DNA from: a virus
Virus record (IMG/VR): IMGVR_UViG_3300000101_000183
Location: 1 to 22,873 of that record
Length of the DNA stretch: 22,873 nt
Strand: one strand, 5' to 3'
How positions within the stretch are numbered: position 1 is the first letter of the stretch; the number at the start of each line of letters is the position of its first letter. The notes under the pieces were generated by a model, which saw nothing but the letters and a program-made list of their open reading frames with translations, had not been told where the DNA came from and made no database searches. Of the stretch, positions 2,265-21,828 are shown in pieces. The position numbers were made by a program, and so were the translations under genes.

Positions 2265-2540
2265 ATGGGAAAACAAAAACTATCGCCACAAGCCGCTGCT
2301 AAGAAAAAAGCGAGAGATATTGCTTATGCAAAAGGAATGGCCTGGCAAGGTAAATCTACGGCTAAGTTTAAAAGGAAAGCTAAGAAGGCAGAGAACCAGA
2401 GGATAGGACAAAATAGCACATCGGACATACACCATGTTAATGGTCAAGTCGGTAATACTAAAAGAGTTTCCATAGCAAGTAACCGAGATACGTTTAAAAA
2501 CGGTGATCGCAAGAAAAAGAAAAAAACAAATAAAAAATAA
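2265..2540 (+). CDS. Small basic phage protein, first gene of the rightward block
   Basis: 91 residues from ATG at 2265. It is very lysine-rich at both ends (N-terminus MGKQKLSPQAAAKKKARDIA, C-terminus ending KKKKKTNKK), so it probably binds nucleic acid. The middle has SDIHHVNGQVGNTKRVSIAS followed by NRDTFKNG. The DIHHVNG piece recalls the first histidine motif of HNH nucleases, but no second histidine/asparagine motif follows, so I do not call a nuclease. Small phage proteins with a D-H-x-G..NR pattern are common near structural genes, from memory. It is the promoter-proximal gene of the late block and ends 3 bases before the first fibre gene. Confidence 0.75.
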   Translation: MGKQKLSPQAAAKKKARDIAYAKGMAWQGKSTAKFKRKAKKAENQRIGQNSTSDIHHVNGQVGNTKRVSIASNRDTFKNGDRKKKKKTNKK

Positions 2541-2543
2541 AAC

Positions 2544-3878
2544 ATGGCAATAGTATATACATACCCTATTGGAACTCCCGCGTCTGGCGATTTACTAGTA
2601 GGTACAAAAACACCGGTAGAAGGCGAGGCTTTTGAACCAAAAACAACTTTAAACTTTACGGTCTCTTCGTTATTAAGTTTGGGTATAAATGGTACAGTAG
2701 GTACTATACCTGTATTTACAGGAAGTAACACTGTAGGTAACTCTATAATTACTCAGAACGCTAGCAAGATAGGTATCGATGTTGCAGTACCAAGTTATAA
2801 GTTATCTGTACAAGGAGATATTTCATTAGTAGGCGGTGGAGAGAACTACGGTATCTTGTCACCAATTGCTCAAGGAATGCAAATTGCTGTTGGAGATCCC
2901 GCAAACGTATCCAGTCCTTTAGCTACTTTTGATGGAATAAATCAAAGAGTAGGTATTGGGACTAATACACCATCACAGAAATTACATGTTGATGGTGCTG
3001 TTAGAGTGACCGGTGGATATTTCGATTCTAGTAACTCACAGGGAACTTCTGGTAAAGTTTTATCTTCTACTGGTTCCGGAACTAGTTGGGTAGATACTAT
3101 ATCTGGAACTGGATTAGCGGATACAGTAGTGCGTTGGACGGGCTCTAACACTATAACTTCTAGTAGCATCAGAGATAACGGCACAAACGTCGGTATTAGT
3201 CAAGATGCTGGTGATGAAGTTCTGACAGTAAGTTCAGGTGTTGGTAACGGTATTGATGGTGTTTTTATAAAAGATCCTTTCGCTGGTGGGAGTCGTATCG
3301 TAAGTTCTAAAAACCCAATGCTGTCGTTAGGTACAGCTGCGGATACTGGAGCCACTTCAACTATTTTTATGGGGCATAATGCTACGGCTGAGAATCAAGA
3401 TTGTAAAATAGAGTACAATAGAGGTGGTGGTTCAGATAGTAAATTAAGTATTTGGGTCAAAGGGCAAGGAACGTATAGAGAACACTTAAGATTTGGTGAC
3501 CTCCCTAATAGTACCCCTAGATCAATGTTTTTTGGTAACGTTGGAATTAACACAACTAGTCCGCAGTTTAAATTAGATGTTGGTGATGATATGAGAATAC
3601 AGACCAGCAACAATCTTTATTTTGGTGGAACACAGTCTGTACCTGAGTGGAGTATTAACGCTAGTTCAAGTGACTTACTTATAAACGATGTAGCTACCGT
3701 TCAAGGAGCCGTTTTATTTCAGAATGTAAAAGGTATCGTTCCGCGTAATGCTACAACTGCAGAAATAAGCGCTATAACTGGTGCTAATACAGGCGCTATG
3801 GTTTACAACACAACACTTAATACTATTTGCTTTTATAACGGGTCATCTTGGAGACAAGTTAGCCATACAGCAATGTAA
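2544..3878 (+). CDS. Tail fibre / appendage protein with GIGT..SP repeats
   Basis: 444 residues. The N-terminus (MAIVYTYPIGTPASGDLLVG) matches in style the start of the next gene (YP....D..VGTD) and probably anchors the protein to the virion. The body carries repeats of the type QRVGIGTNTPSQKLHVDG (about 134-151) and NVGINTTSPQFKLDVGDD (about 332-349), plus a degenerate KIGIDVAVPSYKLSVQGD (about 75-92). These are typical of beta-helical fibre shafts. The C-terminus (TGAMVYNTTLNTICFYNGSS then W) resembles a small domain often found at fibre ends. No S74 domain is present, so it is not self-processed that way. It is one of four consecutive appendage genes. Confidence 0.8.
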   Translation: MAIVYTYPIGTPASGDLLVGTKTPVEGEAFEPKTTLNFTVSSLLSLGINGTVGTIPVFTGSNTVGNSIITQNASKIGIDVAVPSYKLSVQGDISLVGGGENYGILSPIAQGMQIAVGDPANVSSPLATFDGINQRVGIGTNTPSQKLHVDGAVRVTGGYFDSSNSQGTSGKVLSSTGSGTSWVDTISGTGLADTVVRWTGSNTITSSSIRDNGTNVGISQDAGDEVLTVSSGVGNGIDGVFIKDPFAGGSRIVSSKNPMLSLGTAADTGATSTIFMGHNATAENQDCKIEYNRGGGSDSKLSIWVKGQGTYREHLRFGDLPNSTPRSMFFGNVGINTTSPQFKLDVGDDMRIQTSNNLYFGGTQSVPEWSINASSSDLLINDVATVQGAVLFQNVKGIVPRNATTAEISAITGANTGAMVYNTTLNTICFYNGSSWRQVSHTAM

Positions 3879-3897
3879 ACTAAAAAAACATAAATAA

Positions 3898-4584
3898 ATG
3901 CCTATAATCAATTCTTACCCACAGGACATAAACATTCAAGATCAAGATGCTTGGGTAGGAACGGACTACAATACCCGTAATACTAAGCAGTATACAGCAC
4001 AAGCGGTTGCTAATTACTTAAACCAAAAAGGTAAAGTATCTATAGCAGGTCAAATTGCTTATAAATTCGTAGACACACCATTCTCAGGGCAAGGCACAAT
4101 GGCTCTTAGCCCAAACAATGGAACATCGTTCTCGGCGATAACAGGGTTTAAGATAGCTAAAGCTAATTTAACCGGGAAACCAGTTGTAGCATATTTGCAG
4201 TTCCTAGTAGGGCAAGAAATATTGATAGTAGATCAAAATGACCCAGAGAGTTTTGGGCACTACACTATTAATACCTACACGGTAGACGCGAACAATGATC
4301 AGTACTACGATATTGCTTTATCTTTCTTAGGAGGTAATGGTAGTATAAGCATCGACAACTTCTATGATATAATAAACTTCACCTTTGGAGATAAGACTTT
4401 TATATATGATCAAGTTACTCCTGCAACAATATGGACGGTTCAACATGGGTTAAATAAGTTCCCCTCTATAACAGTAGTAGACACAGCAAAGTCTGTAGTT
4501 ATAGGTGATTATACCTACGTAGACGACAATAACGTAATACTAAACTTTTCAGCCGCATTTGCAGGTAAAGCATACTTCAACTAA
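3898..4584 (+). CDS. Short appendage / receptor-binding protein
   Basis: 228 residues. The N-terminal 50 residues (MPIINSYPQDINIQDQDAWV, then GTDYNTRNTKQYTAQAVANY) resemble the start of the 444-residue neighbour, suggesting a common attachment domain. The C-terminal 50 residues (WTVQHGLNKFPSITVVDTAK, then a GDYTYVDDNNVILNFS..AGKAY run) match a motif often seen at the end of phage fibre and baseplate-associated proteins: W..QHxLxxxPSxxVVD...GxxxYxxxNxxxxxFxxAxxGxAY. The middle is not recognised. It lies between two longer fibre genes with short A-rich spacers, so it is probably co-expressed with them as another part of the same adsorption apparatus. Confidence 0.75.
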   Translation: MPIINSYPQDINIQDQDAWVGTDYNTRNTKQYTAQAVANYLNQKGKVSIAGQIAYKFVDTPFSGQGTMALSPNNGTSFSAITGFKIAKANLTGKPVVAYLQFLVGQEILIVDQNDPESFGHYTINTYTVDANNDQYYDIALSFLGGNGSISIDNFYDIINFTFGDKTFIYDQVTPATIWTVQHGLNKFPSITVVDTAKSVVIGDYTYVDDNNVILNFSAAFAGKAYFN

Positions 4585-4608
4585 AAAACAAGCTAAAAAT
4601 AAAAAAAC

Positions 4609-5775
4609 ATGGCAATTAATTATTTAAACACGGTTAATCTTAACAAGAACCAATTAGAGCAAGCGGCAATAGAAAACTTAACCGCTAATCCTGCTTCAGG
4701 AGTATTGGGACAAGTGTACTATAATACAGTTTCTAGTCAACTAAAAGTATGTACAACAGCTGGTAACCCAACAGGAGCCGTATGGGCTGTAGTAGGTTTA
4801 GGTGACACTACTTACGATTTAGCCTCAGCGGCAAACGTTTCGGCTGGAGTTAATATTAATTTAACAGGTAGCGATTCCTCTACGGATACTATAAATATTA
4901 TAGGTACAACTAACGAACTCGAGATAACTCAAACAGGTACTGCTAATAAGTTACAGATTGGTCTTCCAGCTGATGTTACTATTAGTAATAATCTTACGGT
5001 TAGCAACAACACTTCTGTTGGTGGAGATTTAGGGGTCAGCGGTGACTTCACTGTTAGTCAAGATGCCTTTTTTAATGGAACCGCTTTTGAGATAGACGCG
5101 AACACTAATATTGAAATAGGTTCTAACAAGCTTGCGAATGTTGCAGATCCAACTTCCGCTCAAGACGCAGCCACTAAGGCTTATGTTGATGCGGCGACTG
5201 TTGGAGGTCTTATATATCAAGGAGGTTATAACGCTGCTACAAATACTCCAGATTTAGATTCATCACCTAGCGCAAGTATTAAAAAAGGTTGGACATACAC
5301 AGTAACAGCTGATGGTCTTTTCTTTACAGAACAAGTAAGAGTTGGCGACGTACTTATTGCAGAAAGCGATACTCCAACAACGTTAGCTAACTGGACAACT
5401 GTTCAAAACAACATCGACCTTGCTAGTTTAACACAAGTAGGTATTGGTAATGTGAATGCTGGAACTGGTATATCTGTTACTTATGCTTCAGGTACCGCAA
5501 CCGTAAATGCTAGTTCTAACGGAGCAAGACAAGATTTACTTTCTAGTGATGCTAATGTTACTAGAACAGAATCTGGAGGGATAACTACGTTTGCATTAGA
5601 CGTTGGAGCAATATTAGGTTCAACTAGCGCTTTAAATGTTAAAGCAGAAATAATTTCTGCCGCCGGTCAAACAGTTTATGCAGATATAACAAGATCGGGA
5701 ACTACATTGAATGTTATTTTCACAGGTAGTGTAGCTAATTCTGCTTATCAAGCTTTGCTTATTGACTTAGCGTAA
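4609..5775 (+). CDS. Tail fibre protein
   Basis: 388 residues. The start MAINYLNTVNLNKNQLEQAA is close to that of the next gene (MAIKFLNTVAVDNN), so the two probably share an anchor. Residues 31-60 (VLGQVYYNTVSSQLKVCTTA..) form a small repeated fibre motif. Residues about 172-195 contain NKLANVADPTSAQDAATKAY then VDA, the signature of the phage tail-fibre repeat typified by NVADPT..QDAATKAYVD. The rest is rich in T, S, N, G and V, typical of trimeric beta-structured fibres. The C-terminal 60 residues (VKAEIISAAGQTVYADITRS..) may be a compact tip domain. I know no enzyme signature here. Confidence 0.85.
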   Translation: MAINYLNTVNLNKNQLEQAAIENLTANPASGVLGQVYYNTVSSQLKVCTTAGNPTGAVWAVVGLGDTTYDLASAANVSAGVNINLTGSDSSTDTINIIGTTNELEITQTGTANKLQIGLPADVTISNNLTVSNNTSVGGDLGVSGDFTVSQDAFFNGTAFEIDANTNIEIGSNKLANVADPTSAQDAATKAYVDAATVGGLIYQGGYNAATNTPDLDSSPSASIKKGWTYTVTADGLFFTEQVRVGDVLIAESDTPTTLANWTTVQNNIDLASLTQVGIGNVNAGTGISVTYASGTATVNASSNGARQDLLSSDANVTRTESGGITTFALDVGAILGSTSALNVKAEIISAAGQTVYADITRSGTTLNVIFTGSVANSAYQALLIDLA

Positions 5776-5792
5776 CAATAAACTTAAATTAA

Positions 5793-7895
5793 ATGGCAAT
5801 AAAATTTTTAAATACAGTCGCGGTAGACAATAACGTTCTATTCGTAGATACAGTTAATGACCAGGTAGGTATCGGGACGGCTAGCCCCGCGGATAAACTG
5901 CATGTTTCAGGAGGCGCTATTAGGCTTGATAACTTTTATCAATTAAGATGGGGAGGAACAGGAACTGGTATTTATGGTCATTCTTCACAAGGTTTAAACT
6001 TTTTTACAGACTCTGGAACGACTAGATTAAAGATAGAAGACGGAGGTAATGTAGGTATTAATACTACTAGTCCTTTAAGTAAGTTTCAAGTAAACGGACA
6101 AGCGTCAGTATTAGGAAATTCATTTAACGGGTTAGCATACTTTAACGGGACTAACGCTTTAGCTAGTTACAACACAGCTAATAAAATTGTAATGAGTTCA
6201 AACGGCTCAGCAGATGGACTATACACAGGAGGATTACATTTAACAAGAAGAGCGCTAACACAGCAAGGTCATTTTGGTTCAGGAATAAGAGGTATATCAG
6301 TAGGTACTGTATTACAAGACAATGCTCTTGAACTGTACACATCCACAAATACACAACAAAATGCCACAAGGTTAAAGATAACGTCTAACGGTAACGTAGG
6401 TATAGGGACGACTAGCCCTGGTTCGAAATTAGAAGTTAATGGCTCGATTGATGCTGGGGGAGATGGTTATTTAATAAACGGAATGGGGTGGGCTTTAGAG
6501 AACTCAGGTGTTTTAACATTAGGTGATTGGGACGGTCAAGAGTTTTCAACTCGTATAATGGATAACAACTCAAGCGAAGTGTTAAGAGTTACTGATGGTA
6601 AGGTCGGGATCGGGGTTACTGGTCCTAGCTTTAAATTAGATCTAGGTGATTCTACAGACTCAAATAACATGTTTAGGTTAAATGGTAACTTTTCAGATGT
6701 TTTATTTTCAGGAAACGTTAGCGCTCCAACGGGAGGAGTAGGTCTTTGGAACTTTATAAACACAGGAACTAACGCTACTAAAAGATTCTATGTGCAAGAC
6801 GCTAATAATTCTGACTCTAGATTAACTTTTGATTTTAAAGGTAATGGTGGAGCTATTGACATATTAGCAGGTACTTCAAGCGGTAACGTCGGGATTGGAA
6901 CGACTAGTCCTGATTCACTTTTAAATTTAGAAGGTGCTAAAAACACTTCAATAATAACTTTAGGAAGTACAACTAATAATTCATCTTGGTCAGTTGGCGA
7001 TAAAATTGGAGCAATTAATTTTTACTCAGCAGATGGGTCAGGAGCAGGAGCAGGAGTTAAAGCGTCTATATCATACGAAGTAGAAGCAGGAACAACAGGC
7101 TCAACTAATTCAATGATTTTTAGGTCCGCAGGCACAGGTGCAGGTACTAACAATACAGAAAGAATGCGTATAGACTCAGCAGGCAACGTAGGTATTGGAA
7201 CGACTAGTCCTAGCGCTAAGTTAGAGATAAATGATGCTTCTGCTCCTAAAATGCGATTTGGTAGAGGTTCTTCTTATTATTGGGATATTGGACACACTAG
7301 TAGTGATTTTCAAATTCAATCACAGACAGGAGGGACAATAATGCACTTAAATTATGACGGTAACGTAGGGATCGGGACGACTAGCCCTACTGAGAAACTA
7401 GATGTAGCCGGAATAATACAATCTAATTTAAATGGATTTCAGATTGACACCGGTAGTTATGGAGACATTAGACTAAGAGCCTTCTATGGTGCTCTTAACA
7501 CCAGTGCGACTCTTTATGTAGGAGGTGTTAATGGATATTCGTGGCGCCCTGTGTATGCTTCAGCTTTTAATGTAAGCTCTGATTATAGATTAAAAACCAA
7601 TGTAGTAGATTTAGAAGAAGCTATAGAAAGAGTAAAACAAATAAACGTACATAGGTTTAATTGGAAAGATAGATTAGACGAAGAAAAAGTTGATGGATTT
7701 TTAGCTCACGAATTAGCCGAAGTTATTCCTGAAGCTGTTACTGGAGAAAAAGACGCAGTTAGAGAAGATGGAACTCTTGATTACCAAGGAGTAGACCAAT
7801 CTAAAGTAGTGCCTTTACTAACAGCAGCTTTACAAGAAGCAATAAGTAAAATAGAACAATTAGAAACAAGAATACAAACATTAGAAAACAATTAA
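5793..7895 (+). CDS. Long tail fibre with C-terminal S74 intramolecular chaperone
   Basis: 700 residues. After a short N-terminus shared with the preceding gene there are seven repeats of the form NVGIGTTSPxxKLEVNG spread over residues about 24 to 550, separated by variable beta-rich segments. From about residue 595 the sequence is a Peptidase S74 domain: SSDYRLKTNV at the self-cleavage site, with the Ser and the following Lys as the expected catalytic pair, then HRFNWKD, GFLAHELAEVIPEAV, DYQGVDQSKVVPLLTAALQE, and a terminal coiled coil (ISKIEQLETRIQTLENN). In this family the domain guides trimer folding of the shaft and then cuts itself off. The mature fibre would therefore end near residue 594. 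It is probably the main receptor-binding fibre. Confidence 0.92.
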   Translation: MAIKFLNTVAVDNNVLFVDTVNDQVGIGTASPADKLHVSGGAIRLDNFYQLRWGGTGTGIYGHSSQGLNFFTDSGTTRLKIEDGGNVGINTTSPLSKFQVNGQASVLGNSFNGLAYFNGTNALASYNTANKIVMSSNGSADGLYTGGLHLTRRALTQQGHFGSGIRGISVGTVLQDNALELYTSTNTQQNATRLKITSNGNVGIGTTSPGSKLEVNGSIDAGGDGYLINGMGWALENSGVLTLGDWDGQEFSTRIMDNNSSEVLRVTDGKVGIGVTGPSFKLDLGDSTDSNNMFRLNGNFSDVLFSGNVSAPTGGVGLWNFINTGTNATKRFYVQDANNSDSRLTFDFKGNGGAIDILAGTSSGNVGIGTTSPDSLLNLEGAKNTSIITLGSTTNNSSWSVGDKIGAINFYSADGSGAGAGVKASISYEVEAGTTGSTNSMIFRSAGTGAGTNNTERMRIDSAGNVGIGTTSPSAKLEINDASAPKMRFGRGSSYYWDIGHTSSDFQIQSQTGGTIMHLNYDGNVGIGTTSPTEKLDVAGIIQSNLNGFQIDTGSYGDIRLRAFYGALNTSATLYVGGVNGYSWRPVYASAFNVSSDYRLKTNVVDLEEAIERVKQINVHRFNWKDRLDEEKVDGFLAHELAEVIPEAVTGEKDAVREDGTLDYQGVDQSKVVPLLTAALQEAISKIEQLETRIQTLENN

Positions 7896-7898
7896 ACA

Positions 7899-8258
7899 AT
7901 GGCAATTACTTACAAATGGGATATCCCTACAATGAACGCTCACGTTCAATCAGAAGGTGAAGACAACGTAATCTACACAGTACATTACAGATACACAGGC
8001 TCTGAAGAGTCAAACGGTAAAACTTATTCGTCAACTAATATTGGTACTCAAGGTTACACTTATGTGGCTGGAGAGCCTTTTACGCCTTACGAAAACACTG
8101 AAGCTTTTGAAGATATAGTTATCGGATGGTTAGAAAGTTCTTTAGACGTAGATCAAATGCAAGCTAGTATAGCTGCAAACATACAGTCTCAAATTACACC
8201 AATTAATGAAGACTTATACTTTACATGGCAAAATCCTGCATTACCTACTGAAGAATAA
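7899..8258 (+). CDS. Small fibre-associated protein (DUF7936-like)
   Basis: 119 residues, starting 3 bases after the fibre stop. The pattern MAITYKWDIPTMNAHVQSEG, then DNVIYTVHYRYTGSEE, then AGEPFTPYENTEAFEDIVIG, then W, followed by a helical C-terminus, resembles a family of short phage proteins usually placed just after fibre genes. From memory this is DUF7936, and that name is not checked. The proteins begin with a WxV/I strand and end with an ExxxxWV helix. Function is unknown, and a fibre-assembly or minor virion role fits the position. No membrane segment or catalytic motif is seen. Confidence 0.8.
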   Translation: MAITYKWDIPTMNAHVQSEGEDNVIYTVHYRYTGSEESNGKTYSSTNIGTQGYTYVAGEPFTPYENTEAFEDIVIGWLESSLDVDQMQASIAANIQSQITPINEDLYFTWQNPALPTEE

Positions 8259-8327: not shown

Positions 8328-9881
8328 ATGAGTAACGCAATTGTAAAAAACCTCAGCTTTGGCGATGAGGCAAAAAATAATGTGTTTAAAGGTATCGACA
8401 AACTAACAAAAGCCGTAAGTTCTACTTTAGGGGCTAGCGGAAAGTGTGTCATGCTTGAGAACGAGTTTGGAAAGCCAGTTATTACCAAAGATGGTGTAAC
8501 TGTAGCTAATTCAATAACACTTAGAGATCCTATTGAGAATATGGGTGCAACGCTTCTAAAGGAAGCCGCTAGACAAACTGTGAAAGAAGCTGGAGACGGA
8601 ACAACAACAGCTACAGTACTAGCACACTCAATTCTTTTAAAAGCTTACGCTGCTGATAACAGTGGGTCTCGAGAAATGAAAAAAGGTATTGAAGATGCTA
8701 CTAAAAAAGTAATTACGTACTTAGAAAAAATAGCGGTACCGGTAGAAGGTAACATGATAAACAATGTTGCCACCATTTCAGCGAATAACGATAAAGAATT
8801 AGGAAACGTTATAGCAGAAGCTTTTAAAGAAGTTGGAAAGAACGGTGTTGTAACAATGGAAGTGTCAAATGACAGTTCAACTAGTTATGAAGTTATAAAC
8901 GGAGCGGCTATTGATAAGCCTTTAAAAAACTTTCACTTTATAACAGACGAAAGTAAAAAAGAAGCAGTACTTGATAACCCTTTAGTATTGCTTGTAGAAA
9001 ATAAAATAGAAAACATACGCAAAATACAAAGTGTATTAGAATATGTTATAAAAAACAATAAACCTTTACTTATCATAGGGGAAGCGGACGAACAAGTAGT
9101 ATCTGCTTTAGCGATGAACAAGTTGAAAGGCAATATTAAGGTAAATATTATCGATACTCCTGATTTTGGTATATATAGAAAACAGAAGCTTCAAGATTTA
9201 GCTTTGCTAACAGGAGCTACGGTCGTAAATGAAGACCTTGGAGACGACTTAGATATGATTCAAGTAGAAATGCTAGGAAATTGTTTAAAGTCTATTACAA
9301 ATAGCGAGGAGACTATTCTGCAGGTAGAAAATACTACTGAAGAGGTTCAAGATGTTATTAACGAAATACAAAAAAGTATTGAAGAAGAAAAAGCTCCTGG
9401 TGTTCTAAATAGATTAGAAAAAAGATTAGGTTTACTTTCTTGTAAAGTTGCCGTGATAAAAGTAGGCGCTAGTTCTGAAGTTGAGCTTAAAGAAAAGCAA
9501 GATAGAGTAGAAGATGCGATGTGCGCTACAAAAGCAGCTATTAAAGAAGGTATTGTGCCTGGAGGGGGAATTGCTTTGTTAAACGCAGCTACATTAGTAA
9601 AAGCGTCTAACGAAAATGAAAAAGTATTATTAGAAGCTATTAAAGCTCCTTTCTTGACTATACTAAAAAACGCAGGTTTAGATGAGGTATATCCACAAGG
9701 AAAAGGTAAAGGAATAGACGTAGTTACTGGAAAAAGTGTTAGTATGATTAAAAAAGGTATTATAGATCCTTTGTTAGTTACCAAAAGCGCTTTAAAAAAC
9801 GCAGCATCAGTTGCAACTACAATATTATCGACCGATTGTGTAATCAACAACTTAAGAGTAGAAGATGAAAGCAATAGGTAG
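8328..9881 (+). CDS. groEL: Phage GroEL-like chaperonin (Cpn60)
   Basis: 517 residues, colinear with bacterial GroEL (about 548). Key sites are kept: VITKDGVTVA with Asp55, EAGDGTTTATVLA with Asp90 (ATP binding), ISANND, and RVEDAMCATKAAIKEGIVPG then GG with Asp396, the equivalent of the ATP-hydrolysis aspartate (E. coli 398). It should therefore be an active ring ATPase. In the apical domain, alignment by eye puts Leu, His and Phe at the E. coli 199/203/204 positions and Gln, Leu, Val, Ala and Met at 234/237/259/263/264, so the substrate/GroES groove is diverged but largely hydrophobic. The C-terminal GGM-repeat tail is absent; the protein ends VEDESNR. The gene overlaps the groES-like gene by 17 bases. 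It probably folds capsid or fibre proteins during infection. Confidence 0.96.
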   Translation: MSNAIVKNLSFGDEAKNNVFKGIDKLTKAVSSTLGASGKCVMLENEFGKPVITKDGVTVANSITLRDPIENMGATLLKEAARQTVKEAGDGTTTATVLAHSILLKAYAADNSGSREMKKGIEDATKKVITYLEKIAVPVEGNMINNVATISANNDKELGNVIAEAFKEVGKNGVVTMEVSNDSSTSYEVINGAAIDKPLKNFHFITDESKKEAVLDNPLVLLVENKIENIRKIQSVLEYVIKNNKPLLIIGEADEQVVSALAMNKLKGNIKVNIIDTPDFGIYRKQKLQDLALLTGATVVNEDLGDDLDMIQVEMLGNCLKSITNSEETILQVENTTEEVQDVINEIQKSIEEEKAPGVLNRLEKRLGLLSCKVAVIKVGASSEVELKEKQDRVEDAMCATKAAIKEGIVPGGGIALLNAATLVKASNENEKVLLEAIKAPFLTILKNAGLDEVYPQGKGKGIDVVTGKSVSMIKKGIIDPLLVTKSALKNAASVATTILSTDCVINNLRVEDESNR

Positions 9882-10125
9882 AAACTTAATAATAAAAATC
9901 ATTAAAGAGTCAACCACTAAAACAAAAGGTGGTTTGATTCTTAATGAAAAAAGCAGAGAAGATATAAGGTATCGTAAAGCTACCATTGTATCAATAGGAG
10001 AAGAAGTTATAGGTGTTAATAAAGAAGACACTATATACTTTGATAAAAACGCAGGTCATGGCATAGAGATTGACAATGAAAGGTTGCATGTTATAAAAAA
10101 CCAGGATATAGTTGTTGTATTATAA
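9865..10125 (+). CDS. groES: Phage GroES-like cochaperonin (Cpn10)
   Basis: 86 residues, against about 97 for E. coli GroES. The N-terminus MKAIGRNLIIKIIKE is the first strand. TTKTKGGLILNEK is the mobile loop, with the hydrophobic LIL that docks on the GroEL apical domain. The second half, NKEDTIYFDKNAGHGIEIDN then ERLHVIKNQDIVVVL, matches the typical Cpn10 ending. The start at 9865 lies inside the groEL-like gene in another frame (17-base overlap), so the two are translationally coupled. The order groEL then groES is the reverse of the usual bacterial groES-groEL operon. The stop overlaps the next start by one base (TAATG). Confidence 0.93.
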   Translation: MKAIGRNLIIKIIKESTTKTKGGLILNEKSREDIRYRKATIVSIGEEVIGVNKEDTIYFDKNAGHGIEIDNERLHVIKNQDIVVVL

Positions 10126-11269: not shown

Positions 11270-11731
11270 ATGAGCAATATAAGTGATCACATAACTTTGA
11301 AAGAAGGTATCAACTCTTTTACTGCTAAAAGAAAAGGTATAGATAACACACCTAATGAATACCAGATAACCAACATGTATATATTAGCTCACAAAGTGTT
11401 TGAGCCTTTACGCAAATGGGTTGGTGGACCTATAAAAATAAATTCTTTTTTTAGATCCGAAGAACTTAATAAAGCTATAGGCGGAAGTTCTAAGTCGCAG
11501 CATTGTGAAGGCAGAGCTATGGATGTAGATGACATATATGGTCACAAGACTAACGCTGAAATGTTTGAGTATATAAAAGAAAATTTGGACTTTGATCAAA
11601 TGATATGGGAGTTTGGTAGTGATGAAAATCCAGATTGGATCCATGTAAGTTACCGCTCAGCAGATGAAAATAGAAAAAGATGTCTAAAGGCATATAGAGA
11701 AAACGGTAAAACTAAATACAAAGTTATATAA
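11270..11731 (+). CDS. Endolysin, M15-family peptidase
   Basis: 153 residues with the zinc-peptidase pattern of the M15_3 (VanY/L-Ala-D-Glu peptidase-like) family. INSFFRSEELNKAIGGSSKS leads into SQHCEGRAMDVD, giving ligands His78 and Asp85 (SxHxxGxAxD). MIWEFG follows at 111-116, then PDWIHVSY with His125 as the third ligand. There is no signal peptide, so a holin is needed for export. It cuts peptidoglycan peptide stems at the end of infection. It lies between two membrane-protein genes. Its stop overlaps the next start by one base (TAATG). Confidence 0.92.
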   Translation: MSNISDHITLKEGINSFTAKRKGIDNTPNEYQITNMYILAHKVFEPLRKWVGGPIKINSFFRSEELNKAIGGSSKSQHCEGRAMDVDDIYGHKTNAEMFEYIKENLDFDQMIWEFGSDENPDWIHVSYRSADENRKRCLKAYRENGKTKYKVI

Positions 11732-12048
11732 TGAGTGCAGAGCTTTCGGAAAAATCAAAAGTTTCTTTAGATGTAAAAGCGATTGTCGGAGCAGTTGCTG
11801 GTATTATCTCAATAGCAGGTGTATGGTTTACATTAACAGCAGAAATAGCCCAACTACAATTAGATGTAATTAGAATGCAAGACGCTGTAAAGCTAAACGA
11901 AGAGTTTAGAGTTAAATGGCCTCGTGGAGAAATGGGTGCGCTACCTGATGACGCTAAACAAGATTTAAAGATAATATATCTGCAAGACGATGTTAATCAA
12001 TTGAAATACATTGTTAAAGCACTCGAAATAGATAATGCTAAGAAATAA
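11731..12048 (+). CDS. Membrane-anchored coiled-coil protein, lysis candidate
   Basis: 105 residues. There is a short charged N-terminus, then one membrane segment at about 17-36 (AIVGAVAGIISIAGVWFTLT). Next is a coiled-coil start (AEIAQLQLDVIRMQDAVKLN), a linker with RVKWPRGEMGALPDD, and a second helix (KIIYLQDDVNQLKYIVKALE). One membrane anchor plus a long coiled coil is the build of inner-membrane spanins and of some holin-like phage proteins. Position directly after the M15 peptidase with a TAATG overlap supports a lysis role. The exact class is not settled by sequence alone. Confidence 0.8.
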   Translation: MSAELSEKSKVSLDVKAIVGAVAGIISIAGVWFTLTAEIAQLQLDVIRMQDAVKLNEEFRVKWPRGEMGALPDDAKQDLKIIYLQDDVNQLKYIVKALEIDNAKK

Positions 12049-12055
12049 AAGAATT

Positions 12056-12184
12056 ATGAAGTCAAAAACAAAAAAAGATTCTTGCTATCACAAAATAAAA
12101 AGATCATACAAAGTATTTCCTTCAGCATACGCTAGTGGAGCTATTGCTAAATGCCGAAAAGCTAAGGGTAAAAAGCGAAAGTAA
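12056..12184 (+). CDS. Tiny basic Cys-containing protein (CYxK..YKVFPSAYASGA..KCRK motif)
   Basis: 42 residues: MKSKTKKDSCYHKIKRSYKV, then FPSAYASGAIAKCRKAKGKK, then RK. The core CYHKIKRSYKVFPSAYASGA followed by KCRK is a pattern I remember from many marine phages and some large algal viruses, where it appears alone or as part of longer proteins. Its function is unknown. Two cysteines and a strong positive charge suggest nucleic-acid binding. TAA overlaps the next ATG by one base. It is the first of four small very basic genes. Confidence 0.8.
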   Translation: MKSKTKKDSCYHKIKRSYKVFPSAYASGAIAKCRKAKGKKRK

Positions 12185-12438
12185 TGGCTGTTAGAAAAAC
12201 TAAAAAAGGAGCCTCCCTTAAAAGATGGTTTAAAGAAAAGTGGACAGATGAAAAGGGAAACGTATGTGGTTCTACTAAAAACAAAAACACTAAAAAGTGT
12301 AGACCAAGTAAAAGAGTGAGCGGCAAGACACCTAAAACTTGGAGAGAAATGTCACCTGCAGAAAAGAAGAAAGCGGTAGCTGAAAAGAAAAGAGTAGGTA
12401 TGGGTAAAAAAACATCATCATTAAAACGTAAAAAATAA
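12184..12438 (+). CDS. Small basic Cys-containing protein (RWFKEKW..CRPSKRVSGKTPKT)
   Basis: 84 residues, about one third Lys/Arg. The motif LKRWFKEKWTDEKGNVCGST, then KKCRPSKRVSGKTPKTWREM, then SPAEKKKAVAEKKRVG is the same kind of short conserved block seen in marine phages and algal viruses, from memory, with two cysteines (CG and KCRPS) that could form a metal or redox site. Function is unknown. Two helices of K/A/E follow. It overlaps the preceding stop by one base, and the four-gene basic cluster is probably co-translated. Confidence 0.85.
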   Translation: MAVRKTKKGASLKRWFKEKWTDEKGNVCGSTKNKNTKKCRPSKRVSGKTPKTWREMSPAEKKKAVAEKKRVGMGKKTSSLKRKK

Positions 12439-12442
12439 CATT

Positions 12443-12559
12443 ATGCCAAAAGTAGGAAGTAAAAAATTCGCGTACACAACAAAAGGAAAAACAGCAGCTA
12501 AAGCTTACGCTAAGAAAACAGGTAAAAAGGTTGTTCCTAAAAAAAAAAATAAATACTAA
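12443..12559 (+). CDS. Tiny basic protein ending in an A11 run
   Basis: 38 residues from ATG at 12443: MPKVGSKKFAYTTKGKTAAK, then AYAKKTGKKVVPKKKNKY. The MPKVGxKKFxYTxxGKxAAK pattern is familiar from marine phage microproteins, with function unknown. Near its 3' end the gene runs into eleven consecutive A bases (12539-12549). With one A fewer, reading would continue past the stop at 12557-12559 to TAA at 12582-12584 and add INTKKPCGCKH, a cysteine-bearing tail that then ends 5 bases before the next gene. The true C-terminus is therefore uncertain. Confidence 0.7.
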   Translation: MPKVGSKKFAYTTKGKTAAKAYAKKTGKKVVPKKKNKY

Positions 12560-12589
12560 AAAACCTTGCGGTTGTAAACATTAATAATT

Positions 12590-12874
12590 ATGGCTAAGAA
12601 ACAAATAAGGAAGACAACTAAGGGTGAAAAAAGAAATTACCTATCCACCAAAGAAGGAGCAGGAATGACCAAAAGAGGTGTTGCTGCTTACAGAAAGAAA
12701 AACCCAGGTAGTAAACTTAAAACAGCTGTAACAGGTAAGGTAAAAGCTGGTAGTAAAGATGCTAAAAGAAGAAAATCATTTTGTGCACGTATGAGCGGAA
12801 TGCCAGGTCCTATGAAGGATAAAAAAGGCAGACCAACTAGAAAAGCAGCTGCACTTAAAAGATGGAGGTGTTAA
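12590..12874 (+). CDS. Small basic conserved protein (DUF6321-like)
   Basis: 94 residues, rich in Lys and Arg. The blocks GAGMTKRGVAAYRKKNPGSK, then LKTAVTGKVKAGSKDAKRRK, then SFCARMSGMPGPMKDKKGRP, then TRKAAALKRWRC match a family I remember from marine phages and algal viruses as DUF6321 (name not checked). The family has the signature KSFCARMxGMxGPMK and ends in KW/RxC. Function is unknown, and its charge suggests DNA or RNA binding or packaging in the virion. It is the last of the four basic genes and lies 3 bases before the holin. Confidence 0.85.
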   Translation: MAKKQIRKTTKGEKRNYLSTKEGAGMTKRGVAAYRKKNPGSKLKTAVTGKVKAGSKDAKRRKSFCARMSGMPGPMKDKKGRPTRKAAALKRWRC

Positions 12875-12877
12875 GTT

Positions 12878-13276
12878 ATGAGTTGGTTAAGTAGATTACT
12901 AGGAGGCGGAACCAAAGGTATTGGGGAATTAGCTAAAGATATTAGAGAAGCAATTAAAGGAAAAGAGCTTGATCCTAATAAAAAGTTAGAAATGGCCGGT
13001 AAATTGGCTGAAGTTCAAACAAAAATAAACGAAGCTGAAGCAACGCACAGAACTGTATTTGTTGCAGGCTGGAGACCTTTTATAGGCTGGGTATGTGGAT
13101 TAGGTTTATTGTACGCTGTATTTATAGAGCCTTTATTAAGGTTTGTTTTTACAGTAAAAGGATGGACAATTGAGTTTCCGAAAATAGACACGACTGTTAC
13201 TATGCAGGTACTATTTGGGATGTTGGGATTAGTAGGGGCGAGATCTTACGAAAAAAAGAATAAATTAACAAAGTAA
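12878..13276 (+). CDS. Holin of the 3TM superfamily
   Basis: 132 residues. An amphipathic N-terminus (MSWLSRLLGGGTKGIGELAK) and a charged helix (about 30-58) lead into VFVAGWRPFIGWVCGLGLLY then AVFIEPLLRFVF (about 60-91), one or two membrane passes. Another segment follows at 108-124 (TMQVLFGMLGLVGARSY) with a basic tail. The GWRPFIGW and LGLVGARSYEK signatures are those of GTA_holin_3TM (PF11351, from memory). It would make the inner-membrane holes that let the M15 endolysin out. It is separated from the peptidase by the basic-protein cluster, which is unusual for a lysis cassette. Confidence 0.88.
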   Translation: MSWLSRLLGGGTKGIGELAKDIREAIKGKELDPNKKLEMAGKLAEVQTKINEAEATHRTVFVAGWRPFIGWVCGLGLLYAVFIEPLLRFVFTVKGWTIEFPKIDTTVTMQVLFGMLGLVGARSYEKKNKLTK

Positions 13277-13336
13277 AACTAAATTACTTGAATTTTAGGT
13301 AATTATAAACAAATAACAATTAAATTAAATTAAATT
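13277..13336 (+). promoter_or_regulatory. Intergenic leader with weak hairpin
   Basis: 60-base gap after the holin. It contains an imperfect hairpin AATTAC (13282-13287) / GTAATT (13299-13304) and a three-fold AAATT tandem repeat directly before the next ATG. It may end or restart a transcript segment. No recognised promoter is visible. Confidence 0.3.
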
Positions 13337-13582
13337 ATGCCAAAAATTAAAAAAGAAGAGTTAGAAGCAATTGTAACTAAACAAAACGAAGTATCTAGTA
13401 TTATGAACAATATAGGTATACTTGAAGCTAAAAAGCACGAGTTCCTACATTCATTTGCTAAAGTAAACGGAGAGTTAGAGGATATTAAAAAAGACCTAGA
13501 AGAAACCTATGGGCAAATAAATATCGATTTAGCAACTGGAGAGTATACTGAGGTTGAAAAAGAAGATGAGCAAGATAATTAG
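13337..13582 (+). CDS. Hypothetical coiled-coil protein, 81 aa
   Basis: 81 residues, nearly all helical with heptad-like spacing (KEELEAIVTKQNEVSSIMNN, then EAKKHEFLHSFAKVNGELED, then IKKDLEETYGQINIDLATGE). It ends in an acidic tail (YTEVEKEDEQDN). Small coiled-coil proteins ending in YGxxNIDLxTGEY are familiar next to terminase genes in marine phages, from memory. No enzyme motif is present. A structural or assembly-linked role is plausible. The 3' end overlaps the start of the next gene in another frame by 17 bases. Confidence 0.8.
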   Translation: MPKIKKEELEAIVTKQNEVSSIMNNIGILEAKKHEFLHSFAKVNGELEDIKKDLEETYGQINIDLATGEYTEVEKEDEQDN

Positions 13583-13793
13583 AAAGATAAGTATCGGTTC
13601 AGATTATAAAAATGACGCCATGCACTACGCTGTTAATCAGTCAGTGTATGGTGGTCATATTATAAAAGATATACTACACGATCCAAGTGACAATTCTTAT
13701 AGCATTTATATTAAAAAAAACAACGAGGTATTAGTTTGGAAGAAATTTAATTCCAACATGGCTATCTCTGTTGAATACGATTTAGAATACTAA
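13566..13793 (+). CDS. Hypothetical 75-aa protein
   Basis: 75 residues from ATG at 13566. A TTG at 13554 in the same frame would add four lysine-rich residues and is less likely. The sequence MSKIIRKISIGSDYKNDAMH, then YAVNQSVYGGHIIKDILHDP, then a beta hairpin (NSYSIYIKKNNEVLVWKKFN) looks like a compact alpha/beta fold. No family is recognised. It overlaps the preceding gene by 17 bases and shares a TAATG with the next, so it is coupled on both sides in the run leading to the terminase. Confidence 0.75.
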   Translation: MSKIIRKISIGSDYKNDAMHYAVNQSVYGGHIIKDILHDPSDNSYSIYIKKNNEVLVWKKFNSNMAISVEYDLEY

Positions 13794-14398
13794 TGAATAG
13801 TTTAGGACAGTTTATTATAAAACCACTAAACAATCGATACAACAATAAAGTAAAGGTAGGTGATAAAGATCTTATTACTAATACCAAAGTGGAAGATTGG
13901 AGATCCGTAAGCAAGGAAGCTATTGTGGTTTCAACACCCTCTGCGTTAGTAACAGATATAAAGCCAGGTGATAAAGTGATAGTGCATCACAATATATTTA
14001 GAAGATGGTATGACGTTAGAGGGACAGAAAGGAATAGTTCAACATTTTTTAAAGACAATATGTATTTTGCTAACCCCGACCAAATATATATGTATCAAAA
14101 AAACGGGGAATGGTATACTCATATGCACTACTGCTTCGTTACACCTGTAATTGAAACAGACGTTTTAAAGAGTCAAAAAGAAAAAGAACTTGTTGGTATA
14201 TTAAAATACAGCAACGAGTCTTTAAAAGCGCTTAAAATTAACCCAGGAGACTTAATTGGGTTTAAACCTAACTCAGAGTTTGAGTTTGTATTTGATAACA
14301 AGCGTTTGTATTGTATGAAATCTAATGATATTGTAATTAAGTATGAAAATAAAGGAGACGAAAAAGAATATAATCCTAGCTGGGCAGATAGCCGTTGA
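13793..14398 (+). CDS. Tandem Cpn10-like protein, candidate second cochaperonin
   Basis: 201 residues that look like two GroES-like barrels in a row. The first spans about 4-115: strand GQFIIKPLNN, a loop with KVGDKDLITNTKVEDW in the mobile-loop position, then EAIVVSTPSALVTDIKPGDK then VIVHHN and a QIYMY strand. The second is about 116-185. Its end, KINPGDLIGFKPNSEFEFVF then DNKRLYCMKSNDIVIKY, aligns without gaps over 37 residues with the end of the 86-aa GroES-like protein at 9865-10125, with 13 identities. The second barrel seems to have a shortened, non-hydrophobic loop. This is fold-level inference from inspection. It could be a specialised cochaperonin or a structural protein reusing the fold. 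Its end overlaps the next gene by 56 bases. Confidence 0.7.
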   Translation: MNSLGQFIIKPLNNRYNNKVKVGDKDLITNTKVEDWRSVSKEAIVVSTPSALVTDIKPGDKVIVHHNIFRRWYDVRGTERNSSTFFKDNMYFANPDQIYMYQKNGEWYTHMHYCFVTPVIETDVLKSQKEKELVGILKYSNESLKALKINPGDLIGFKPNSEFEFVFDNKRLYCMKSNDIVIKYENKGDEKEYNPSWADSR

Positions 14399-14618
14399 AG
14401 AATTAATAAAGGTAGCTCGAGAAGCTATTGTGGATTCTGATGAAGATATATCTGCGGATAGATTAAAAAACGCTGCAGCTACAAAAAAGCTAGCTATTTT
14501 CGATGCCTTCGAAATACTTAATAGAATTGAAGAAGAAGCAAAGCTTTTAGAAGAAAAACCTAAGGAAGTTAAACAAGAAAAATCTTTTAAAGGTTTTGCT
14601 GAAGGTAGATCTAAGTAA
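14343..14618 (+). CDS. Candidate small terminase subunit
   Basis: 91 residues, almost entirely helical and charged: QIAVEELIKVAREAIVDSDE, then DISADRLKNAAATKKLAIFD, then AFEILNRIEEEAKLLEEKPK. It lies just upstream of the large terminase, where the DNA-recognition subunit (TerS) is expected, and its helical build suits a TerS oligomerisation core. No clear helix-turn-helix is visible at the N-terminus, so the assignment rests mainly on position. The start is inside the preceding gene (56-base overlap), and the stop shares a TAATG with the next micro-gene. Confidence 0.6.
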   Translation: MKIKETKKNIILAGQIAVEELIKVAREAIVDSDEDISADRLKNAAATKKLAIFDAFEILNRIEEEAKLLEEKPKEVKQEKSFKGFAEGRSK

Positions 14619-14728
14619 TGTATAAGCAAACATTGTATAGCATAGAGGATTCTTATGTTAAGCCTCAAGTTATAAAGCGAATGAATCGCTATAAGAAGTG
14701 GGAATATGGTTATAATGCAGGAGCATGA
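14618..14728 (+). CDS. Hypothetical 36-aa protein overlapping the TerL start
   Basis: 36 residues: MYKQTLYSIEDSYVKPQVIK, then RMNRYKKWEYGYNAGA. Its ATG overlaps the preceding TAA (TAATG) and its TGA lies 23 bases inside the terminase ORF. The tight TAATG coupling and a Y/K-rich, protein-like composition support a real gene, though it is short. No family is recognised. Confidence 0.55.
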   Translation: MYKQTLYSIEDSYVKPQVIKRMNRYKKWEYGYNAGA

Positions 14729-16844
14729 CCTTGTGGTTATTAGCAAAACTGGAAAAATTGGAAAGATATATACTATCCAAAATCTTAAAATCGCTCTACC
14801 AGAAGAACCAAAAGATATCCAAAAGCGTTCAGTTAAAAAAGAAGAACAGTTTTGGAGCAGGTTGGAATACCCTAAAGAACTATCTAAAATAAAGAGTGTT
14901 TTTGATTGGGAAAAATATCCTATTGATTTTAAAGAAAAGTGGTACGAATATATAGATAAAGAATTTGAAAAAAGGGAAAAAGGTTTTTGGTTTTATAATA
15001 ATGGCAATCCAACTTATATTACTGGCACTCATTATATGTACTTGCAGTGGTCCAAGATTGATGTTGGGGCAGCAGATTATAGGGAATCAAACAGACTATT
15101 CTTCATATTCTGGGAAGCTTGTAAAGCAGACAAGAGGTGTTATGGAATGTCGTATCTCAAGAATAGACGTTCAGGATTTTCATTCATGGCGTCTGGGGAG
15201 ACAGTTAATATGGCCACAATATCAACGGATTCACGGTTTGGGATATTGTCCAAATCTGGTGCCGACGCAAAGAAAATGTTCACAGATAAAGTTGTACCCA
15301 TTTCCAGCAATTACCCCTTTTTCTTCAAACCAATACAAGATGGAATGGACCGGCCAAAAACGGAACTCGCCTATAGGGTACCCGCGTCAAGGCTCACCAG
15401 ACGTAAACTTAATGAAGGTGAAACCGAAAACGAACTAGAAGGACTAGATACAACTATTGACTGGAAGAACACGGGAGACAACTCCTATGATGGTGAAAAA
15501 TTAAAACTATTAGTACACGATGAGAGTGGAAAATGGGAAAGACCAGATAATATATTAAATAACTGGCGGGTTACAAAGACTTGTTTAAGACTAGGTAGTA
15601 AGATCGTTGGTAAATGCATGATGGGTTCAACCTCTAATGCTTTAGAAAAAGGTGGTGGGAACTTTAAAAAACTTTATTATGCCTCAGATGTCACGAACAG
15701 AAACCGCAATGGACAAACTAGCTCAGGATTATATTCTTTGTTCATACCTATGGAATGGAACTACGAAGGATTCATTGATGCTTATGGATTACCTGTATTC
15801 GATAACCCGGAAAAAGAAGTCAAAGATCCTAACGGGGATTTAATAACTCATGGAGTTATAGAACATTGGGAAAATGAAGTTGAAGGATTAAAAGACGATC
15901 AAGACGGTTTAAACGAATATTATCGTCAGTTTCCAAGAACAGAGAAACACGCGTTTAGAGATGAAGCAAAAGAGTCTATATTCAATCTTACTAAGATATA
16001 CGAACAAGTAGATTATAATGAAGACTTAAAAAATACAGCTGTAGTTACTACAGGTAGTTTTGCTTGGGAAAACGGAATGCAAGATACAAGGGTTGTATTT
16101 TACCCTAATAAAGACGGTAGATTCAGAATATCTTGGGTTCCTCCGAATAATCTCCAAAACCAGGTGATAATAAAGAATGGGATTAAATATCCAGGAAATG
16201 AGCATATGGGAGCCTTTGGATGTGATAGCTACGATATATCGGGGACTGTAGATAAAAGAGGTTCTAACGGAGCTTTACACGGATTAACTAAGTTTAGTAT
16301 GGAAGATGCTCCTCCAAATTGTTTTTTCCTTGAATACATAGCTAGACCACAAACAGCTGAAATGTTTTTTGAAGATGTACTTATGGCCTGCGTATTTTAT
16401 GGTATGCCTATATTAGCGGAAAACAATAAACCTAGATTGTTGTATCATTTCAAACGAAGAGGATACAGAGGGTACAGTATGAATAGACCAGATAAGGTTT
16501 GGAATAAGTTATCTGTAACTGAAAGAGAAATTGGTGGTATACCAAACTCAAGTGAAGATATAAAACAAGCTCACGCAGCTGCAATTGAATCATATGTAGA
16601 AACACACGTTGGATTTTTAGGTGAAGGATACGGTAATATGTATATGCAAAGAACCTTAGAAGATTGGGCGAAATTTAATATAAATAACAGAACAAAGCAT
16701 GATGCTTCTATAAGTTCTGGCTTAGCTATTATGGCTTGCAATAAAAATAGATATACGCCAGTCGCTGTTAGACAAAAAAGCAAAATATCTTTACCTTTTA
16801 AAAGATACGACAATAACGGATCCATTTCGAAAATAATAAAATAA
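14706..16844 (+). CDS. terL: Terminase large subunit (packaging ATPase and nuclease)
   Basis: 712 residues. ATPase: a deviant Walker A at about 151-165 (LKNRRSGFSFMASGE), Walker B at 266-274 (LKLLVHDES, acidic pair Asp272-Glu273), and a coupling motif at about 303-311 (KCMMGSTSN). Nuclease: GAFGCDSYDISGT at 502-514, with Asp507 as the first metal ligand of the RNase-H-like fold. The ATPase-then-nuclease order and spacing fit TerL of tailed phages. An in-frame ATG at 14715 is an equally good start. The protein pumps DNA into the prohead through the portal encoded next (adjacent start, no gap) and cuts the concatemer. Confidence 0.93.
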   Translation: MVIMQEHDLVVISKTGKIGKIYTIQNLKIALPEEPKDIQKRSVKKEEQFWSRLEYPKELSKIKSVFDWEKYPIDFKEKWYEYIDKEFEKREKGFWFYNNGNPTYITGTHYMYLQWSKIDVGAADYRESNRLFFIFWEACKADKRCYGMSYLKNRRSGFSFMASGETVNMATISTDSRFGILSKSGADAKKMFTDKVVPISSNYPFFFKPIQDGMDRPKTELAYRVPASRLTRRKLNEGETENELEGLDTTIDWKNTGDNSYDGEKLKLLVHDESGKWERPDNILNNWRVTKTCLRLGSKIVGKCMMGSTSNALEKGGGNFKKLYYASDVTNRNRNGQTSSGLYSLFIPMEWNYEGFIDAYGLPVFDNPEKEVKDPNGDLITHGVIEHWENEVEGLKDDQDGLNEYYRQFPRTEKHAFRDEAKESIFNLTKIYEQVDYNEDLKNTAVVTTGSFAWENGMQDTRVVFYPNKDGRFRISWVPPNNLQNQVIIKNGIKYPGNEHMGAFGCDSYDISGTVDKRGSNGALHGLTKFSMEDAPPNCFFLEYIARPQTAEMFFEDVLMACVFYGMPILAENNKPRLLYHFKRRGYRGYSMNRPDKVWNKLSVTEREIGGIPNSSEDIKQAHAAAIESYVETHVGFLGEGYGNMYMQRTLEDWAKFNINNRTKHDASISSGLAIMACNKNRYTPVAVRQKSKISLPFKRYDNNGSISKIIK

Positions 16845-19250: not shown

Positions 19251-19281
19251 TAACTATTTACTAATTTTATAATATCATATC

Positions 19282-20349
19282 ATGTCAGAAACAATTAAAG
19301 TAGATCTTAGAGAAGGTCCAAAAAACGTAGAGGATAACGTTACTAAGGTAAATTTATCTGAAACAAAAACAGAAGAGCAAGAAGTTGTTCAAGAAGTAGA
19401 AGATCCTAAAGTTGAGCTTGAGGAGGTAACTCAAGATAACGAAGAAGAAGTTATTACATTAGGAGAAGTGTCAAATGATTCAACTGAAGAAGAAATTCAA
19501 CAAGTTATTGAATCTACACCTAAAGCAGATTTACCTGAAAACGTAGAAAAGCTAGTTGACTTCATGAAAGAAACTGGAGGAACTGTACAAGACTATGTTA
19601 GGTTAAACGCAGATTACAGTAATGTTAACGCGGATACATTGCTAACAGAATATTACAAACAAACAAAGTCACATTTAGATGCTGCTGAAATTGATTTCTT
19701 AATGGAAGACAGTTTTGAATTTGACGAAGAAATAGATGAGGAGCGAGACATCCGCAAAAAGAAACTCGCAAAAAAAGAAGAGGTTGCAAAAGCAAAAAAG
19801 TTTTTAGAAGGTCTGAAAGACAAATATTACTCGGAGATCAAGTTGAGACCAGGTATGTCACCAGAACAAAAAGAAGCTTCGGAGTTTTTTAACCGATACA
19901 ATGAGAATCAGAAAATAGCTGAGCAACAGCACTCTGCATTTAAAGAGAGTACTAAACAAATGTTTAACCAAGATTTCAAAGGTTTTGATTTCAAATTAGG
20001 TGAAAAAACATTTAGATATGGTATTCAAAATGTAAGTAAAGTTGCAGAAAACCAATCAAACATTAATAACCTTATTGGGAAGTTCCTAAATGACAAAGGT
20101 GAAGTAACGGATACGAAAGGTTATCACAAAGCTATTTATGCTGCTGAAAATGTAGATACTATTGCAAAACACTTTTATGAGCAAGGCAAGGCCGATGCAG
20201 TAAAGGATGTTGTAGCAAGTTCTAAAAACACTAGTGCAGAAGCGAGGTCGACGGCGCCTTCTGAAGTTACTGTTGGTGGATTTAAAGTACGAGCAATAAG
20301 TGGTGTTGATTCTTCAAAACTAAAGATTAAAAAAACATTTAACAATTAA
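19282..20349 (+). CDS. Candidate scaffolding protein
   Basis: 355 residues between portal and capsid. The first 90 are very acidic and probably disordered (SETKTEEQEVVQEVEDPKVE..). A helical centre follows (DAAEIDFLMEDSFEFDEEID, then KKKLAKKEEVAKAKKFLEGL), and then a basic C-terminus (VGGFKVRAISGVDSSKLKIK). An acidic head, helical body and basic tail placed just before the capsid gene are what one expects of a scaffold. Its basic tail would bind the capsid shell. No protease domain is visible, so it is probably not a fused maturation protease. Confidence 0.8.
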   Translation: MSETIKVDLREGPKNVEDNVTKVNLSETKTEEQEVVQEVEDPKVELEEVTQDNEEEVITLGEVSNDSTEEEIQQVIESTPKADLPENVEKLVDFMKETGGTVQDYVRLNADYSNVNADTLLTEYYKQTKSHLDAAEIDFLMEDSFEFDEEIDEERDIRKKKLAKKEEVAKAKKFLEGLKDKYYSEIKLRPGMSPEQKEASEFFNRYNENQKIAEQQHSAFKESTKQMFNQDFKGFDFKLGEKTFRYGIQNVSKVAENQSNINNLIGKFLNDKGEVTDTKGYHKAIYAAENVDTIAKHFYEQGKADAVKDVVASSKNTSAEARSTAPSEVTVGGFKVRAISGVDSSKLKIKKTFNN

Positions 20350-20367
20350 CATTAAAAACATTTTATT

Positions 20368-21741: not shown

Positions 21742-21764
21742 TCAAGAGTATATTATTGTAATTT

Positions 21765-21791
21765 TTACCCTCGTATAATTTACGGGGGTAA
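21765..21791 (+). terminator. Hairpin after the capsid gene
   Basis: Arms TTACCCTCGT (21765-21774) and ACGGGGGTAA (21782-21791) pair over 10 bp with one G-T wobble and a 7-base loop. It lies 24 bases after the capsid stop. No long T tract follows, so it may be a partial terminator or an mRNA-stabilising end rather than a full stop, in keeping with very high capsid expression. Confidence 0.65.
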
Positions 21792-21828
21792 CTATTACCT
21801 TTATTAAATTATTAAATCTTATTATATT

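Follow-up and report, generated by a model that had tools for sequence, protein, structure and literature searches.

We describe a phage genome fragment that encodes, besides a GroEL-like chaperonin and a GroES-like co-chaperonin, a second, double-length co-chaperonin predicted to consist of two head-to-tail Cpn10 barrels. Our main reading, to which we give a probability of about 0.6, is that one diverged phage chaperonin ring is served by these two different co-chaperonin lids. The three genes are conserved under purifying selection (overall dN/dS 0.03-0.17), and a mobile loop of the GroEL-docking type is apparent, at the sequence level, in both the GroES and the first domain of the long lid.

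The window (the whole stretch of DNA analysed, 22,873 nucleotides of a 23,177-base IMG/VR record) is a fragment of a tailed phage of Bacteroidota type. Upstream of most of its gene starts the sequence is A/T-rich, and motifs resembling Shine-Dalgarno sites are few. These A/T-rich stretches, together with the isolated relatives that infect Flavobacteriia, make a Bacteroidota host likely. The GroEL-GroES pair is flanked by tail-fibre genes on one side (2544-8258) and by lysis, packaging and head genes on the other (11270-22659), and its placement inside a morphogenesis cluster in the preliminary description is a fair one. The gene of the long co-chaperonin, which that description had overlooked, is located 5' of the terminase, portal and capsid genes. 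The features are arranged as follows:

2544-8258: tail-fibre genes
8328-9881, plus strand: GroEL-like group I chaperonin, 517 aa (Pfam, PHROG and NCBIfam)
9865-10125, plus strand: GroES-like co-chaperonin, 86 aa (Pfam Cpn10 and structural model)
Between GroES and the M15 peptidase: small genes
11270-11731: M15 peptidase
12878-13276: holin
13793-14398, plus strand: long co-chaperonin, 201 aa, two predicted head-to-tail Cpn10 barrels, Cpn20-like (structural model and profiles)
14706-16844, plus strand: terminase large subunit, which adjoins the long co-chaperonin in relatives too (context only)
16845-19250, plus strand: portal protein (context)
Between the portal and probable capsid genes: scaffold-like protein
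20368-21741, plus strand: structural protein of the virion, 49 kDa, probably the major capsid protein

The tail-fibre run includes a 700-aa tail-fibre protein (5793-7895) with tail-fibre PHROG matches, the C-terminus of which appears to resemble an S74-type self-cleaving chaperone domain, and ends with a DUF7936 protein (7899-8258; Pfam E=9e-20) directly 5' of GroEL. Two small proteins of 84 and 94 aa (12184-12438 and 12590-12874), both very rich in lysine, are encoded between the peptidase and the holin.

The GroEL-like protein scored 196.6 bits against Pfam Cpn60_TCP1 (PF00118; cut-off 34.3), matched the PHROG chaperonin GroEL family with E=1e-135 and exceeded two NCBIfam GroEL subfamily cut-offs (for NF000592, 477 vs 397 bits), which assigns it to the group I chaperonins by curated cut-off, at a score below the cut-off of the equivalog TIGR02348 (461 vs 582 bits). 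The ATP site is kept (D52, D87, D398, K51 and T89-T91 in E. coli numbering), including the three aspartates already pointed out in the preliminary description; P33 is replaced by alanine. Two further observations made there hold as well: the GGM tail is absent from the C-terminus, which ends in ...VINNLRVEDESNR, and the apical groove has diverged (Y199L, Y203H, L234Q and V263A, with F204 and L237 kept). Aligned to E. coli GroEL, the window protein has no residues at positions 433-434 and 463-467, and the ring-ring contact segments of E. coli are deleted in it and in most of its clade, a deletion that suggests weaker double rings or single rings. The gene is under strong purifying selection (dN/dS 0.03-0.12).

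The stop codon of GroEL (TAG, 9879-9881) lies beyond the start codon of GroES (ATG, 9865), giving an overlap of exactly 17 nt and the GroEL-then-GroES order, both as originally stated. The GroES-like protein scored 46.5 bits against Pfam Cpn10 (PF00166; cut-off 21.1) and fell under every NCBIfam GroES cut-off. Its model matches Cpn10 structures (Z 11.7 to 1wnr), among them T4 gp31 (2cgt; Z 10.0, 1.5 Å over 64 residues). The mobile loop keeps the hydrophobic docking triad (GGLIL aligned to GGIVL), in a region of low pLDDT in the model, and is about 3 residues longer than that of E. coli GroES in the alignment, compared with 22 vs 16 for gp31. The roof hairpin of E. coli GroES is missing, being deleted in the alignment and represented by no strands in the model. 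In this the protein is similar to gp31, a phage Cpn10 fold without roof loops that is believed to help fold the large capsid protein (PMC6318259); T4, however, relies on the host GroEL, whereas the window phage supplies a GroEL and a second lid. GroES is under purifying selection (dN/dS 0.05-0.07). With both genes over their Pfam cut-offs and conserved in this way, the phage does encode a complete chaperonin pair, as had been proposed. The self-sufficiency of this machine and its tuning to virion proteins, both put forward in the preliminary description, are conjectural.

Relatives of the 201-aa protein are annotated as 'chaperonin cpn10', 'co-chaperonin GroES' or 'hypothetical protein', and its own Pfam Cpn10 signal is sub-cut-off and limited to residues 140-183. 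An AlphaFold2 model built from 49 sequences reached a pLDDT of 88. Its best match in the PDB was the Chlamydomonas tandem co-chaperonin CPN20 (7ekq_R), covering residues 1-185 with Z 10.2 (160 residues, 3.9 Å; Foldseek E 3e-5), while the best single-domain GroES match covered residues 106-185 only (Z 8.2). The two halves scored 34.9 and 35.8 against the profile of the phage's own GroES (shuffled maxima 17.2 and 13.1). Against bacterial GroES, the match of domain 2 spans 79 columns, nearly the whole domain, and that of domain 1 is weak (24.0 over 25 columns); compared directly, the two domains did not match each other significantly. The profiles of the halves alone would permit a single Cpn10 domain with an insertion, a candidate that we rejected because the full-length match to CPN20 and the 79-column match of domain 2 favour two domains. 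On the predicted model, the protein thus comprises two head-to-tail Cpn10 domains, as do chloroplast Cpn20 and Cpn21, from which it differs in being phage-encoded, in its trimmed domain-2 loop and in sequence (13% identity in the structural alignment).

Domain 1 has 28-32 residues at the position of the GroES mobile loop, and carries a GroES-like motif there, GGIEF (GLIL in relatives). In domain 2 the corresponding loop has 12 residues in the window and 12-14 across the window, MW202828 and elemovirus types, compared with 22-23 in three phi38:1-type sequences, two of which carry GSIIV. The long lid of the window therefore does not have a docking loop in both domains, that of domain 2 being trimmed. 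Its gene is also under purifying selection (dN/dS 0.10-0.17).

The preliminary description regarded such a pair as uncommon, which does not hold in this phage lineage: GroEL accompanied by GroES is the rule here, usually in the same order. In about 60 window-type loci from viral contigs GroES begins before GroEL ends, with 4-20 nt shared between the two genes, and the long lid followed by the terminase is found downstream in every locus that extends far enough. GroEL also comes first in elemoviruses, MW202828 and Panino, and GroES in phi38:1 and immuto; the GroEL-then-GroES order is a lineage trait and no oddity of the window. Relatives of the chaperonin genes occur in isolated Flavobacterium, Maribacter and Cellulophaga phages, and long-lid relatives in viral contigs amount to 87 stretches of the window type and 540 of the MW202828 type; a scan of viral contigs based on Panino found nothing. 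At all loci whose surroundings were read, the tandem lid adjoins the terminase, and the phage often has a GroEL and a second GroES as well. Among 19 larger contigs with a long lid, 17 carry GroEL, and no contig is without a Cpn10 match; one of the two GroEL-less contigs is a 41.8-kb fragment. The complete genome of phi13:2 and a 72.8-kb contig (G214) have the long lid and no GroEL, each with two Cpn10 genes, one of the long type. Retention of the long lid without a phage ring fits either its use on host GroEL or a role apart from GroEL.

The Flavobacterium elemoviruses and the uncultured podovirus ctfjg026 (MW202828) share with the window the order GroEL then GroES and a long Cpn10 gene by the terminase, but their GroEL is just 34-39% identical to that of the window, and the elemovirus pair is on the strand opposite its neighbours. 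Cellulophaga phage phi38:1 / Calle (Pervagoviridae) likewise has GroEL, a short Cpn10 and a long GroES immediately before the terminase. In this phage, GroES lies ahead of GroEL with one gene between them, whereas the window has the reverse, overlapping order, and the domain-2 loop of its long lid has 22 residues vs 12 in the window. Mass spectrometry has revealed the phi38:1 GroEL both in infected cells and in samples of free virions (PMC13288928), and the core proteins listed for the phi38:1 family include a Cpn10 protein (PMC8776804). Three other loci deserve mention: a near relative of the window (IMGVR_UViG_3300046167_000556) has a GroEL gene interrupted by stop codons and a shift of frame, reflecting a damaged gene or an assembly error; in crAss-like cr108_1 (2492-4229), an overlapping 92-aa ORF follows GroEL in an arrangement like GroEL-GroES; and in the 43-kb siphovirus MW202497, GroEL lies between two glycosyltransferase genes, near the terminase and portal.

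In a careful tree, the window GroEL falls into a phage-only clade (support 99/97) together with environmental phages, an elemovirus, MW202828, Panino and phi38:1, while the chaperonins of immuto, Bacteroides DAC23, crAss-like cr108 and Vibrio phages lie outside it. None of the 278 phage records with a GroEL match exceeded 60% identity to the window protein. Several long branches make the deep placement provisional. The long co-chaperonin is present in all named members of the clade as well, pointing to joint inheritance of GroEL and the long lid. Recent capture of host groEL and groES, put forward in the preliminary description as the outcome that would overturn its proposal, is a reading that we discount almost entirely. 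A quick tree does group the phage clade with Bacteroidota GroELs (SH-aLRT 96), and an ancient Bacteroidota origin is possible on these sequence grounds. However, the best host-side identity was 44% and no host genome with near-identical genes was found among 196 genomes of one Flavobacteriaceae order; moreover, the clade contains phages only, the gene order is unlike the bacterial one and dN/dS is low among the phages.

The jumbo-phage chaperonins of EL, OBP and AR9 are, like the window protein, phage-encoded GroEL-like ATPases, with weakened ring-ring contacts that may have a counterpart in the window GroEL, but they reportedly function in the absence of a co-chaperonin (PMC7185714, PMC9598537). 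We rejected an assignment to this type, as the EL chaperonin is 25% identical to the window GroEL and the window phage has its own GroES. The same distance bears on the idea that the phage GroEL, having lost its encapsulation cycle, is a holdase that does no more than prevent aggregation, a role proposed for the EL chaperonin (PMC7185714). The diverged groove, the missing tail and the deleted ring-ring segments would agree with such a function, yet GroEL retains its ATP-site residues, and in ~60 contigs it is conserved along with an overlapping GroES that bears a docking loop, making a pure holdase improbable. The GroEL-GroES pair could work as a chaperonin while the long protein puts the Cpn10 barrel to another use, as an assembly factor for heads or packaging and not as a GroEL lid; its gene lies beside the terminase and is present without a phage GroEL, and its second docking loop is trimmed. 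We consider this unlikely, given that domain 1 keeps the GroES-like loop pattern and that phi38:1-type relatives retain a loop in domain 2, and retention without a phage GroEL would also be expected if host GroEL is used. That the long lid caps another seven-fold ring instead of GroEL, for example host ClpP, sparing phage proteins from proteolysis, appears very improbable. The best structural match, CPN20, comes from a ClpP structure (7ekq), and CPN20 with CPN11 and CPN23 caps Chlamydomonas ClpP, inhibiting proteolysis according to the title of a study cited in PMC8889267; CPN20 is, however, also a chaperonin lid, so that the match does not discriminate. It is also quite unlikely that the trimmed second barrel adapts the tandem protein beyond the role of a plain GroEL lid, either to form a higher, incompletely docked dome for head proteins or to cap some other seven-fold ring, host ClpP for instance. 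Were a host ClpP cap to prove true, new capsid protein would be shielded from the host protease.

In the two-lid machine that we favour, an ATP-driven phage GroEL ring would enclose phage proteins, probably virion proteins, during infection. The small roofless GroES would cap this ring, leaving a cage whose top would be opened by the missing roof hairpin, as in T4 gp31. For head-assembly proteins, the tandem protein would take the place of this lid or combine with it in a mixed one. Given the difference in domain-2 loop length from the phi38:1 type, only the first barrel of the long lid would dock to GroEL in the window lineage, and the second might merely fill the ring or reshape the dome. 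In relatives with the long lid and without GroEL, the lid would be used on host GroEL. The GroEL cage has a limit of roughly 60 kDa. By this limit, the probable capsid protein would fit a standard cage and is by inference a candidate substrate, whereas the portal and terminase (91 and 82 kDa) would be too big. Several points speak against the two-lid reading. The long lid occurs without a phage GroEL and so is not necessarily a partner of the phage ring; a ring made entirely of long lids, having a single docking loop for every two barrels, may bind weakly; its domain 1 resembles bacterial GroES only weakly in sequence; and the polar residues at apical positions 203 and 234 mean that GroES docking could differ from that in E. 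coli.

Phage GroEL, phage GroES and gp31-type lids are already known. Tandem co-chaperonins, on the other hand, have been described as chloroplast-specific in a review (PMC5780408), and our full-text literature search found no phage example of a tandem GroES, although literature beyond that collection may differ. Cpn20-like tandem lids are present in hundreds of viral contigs. If the long protein works as a lid, the phage folding machine takes two kinds of cap. These phages are a natural experiment on the reasons for which a folding ring would need two lids and on the number of docking loops that a lid requires, with phi38:1 and the elemoviruses as culturable phages in which such tests could be made.
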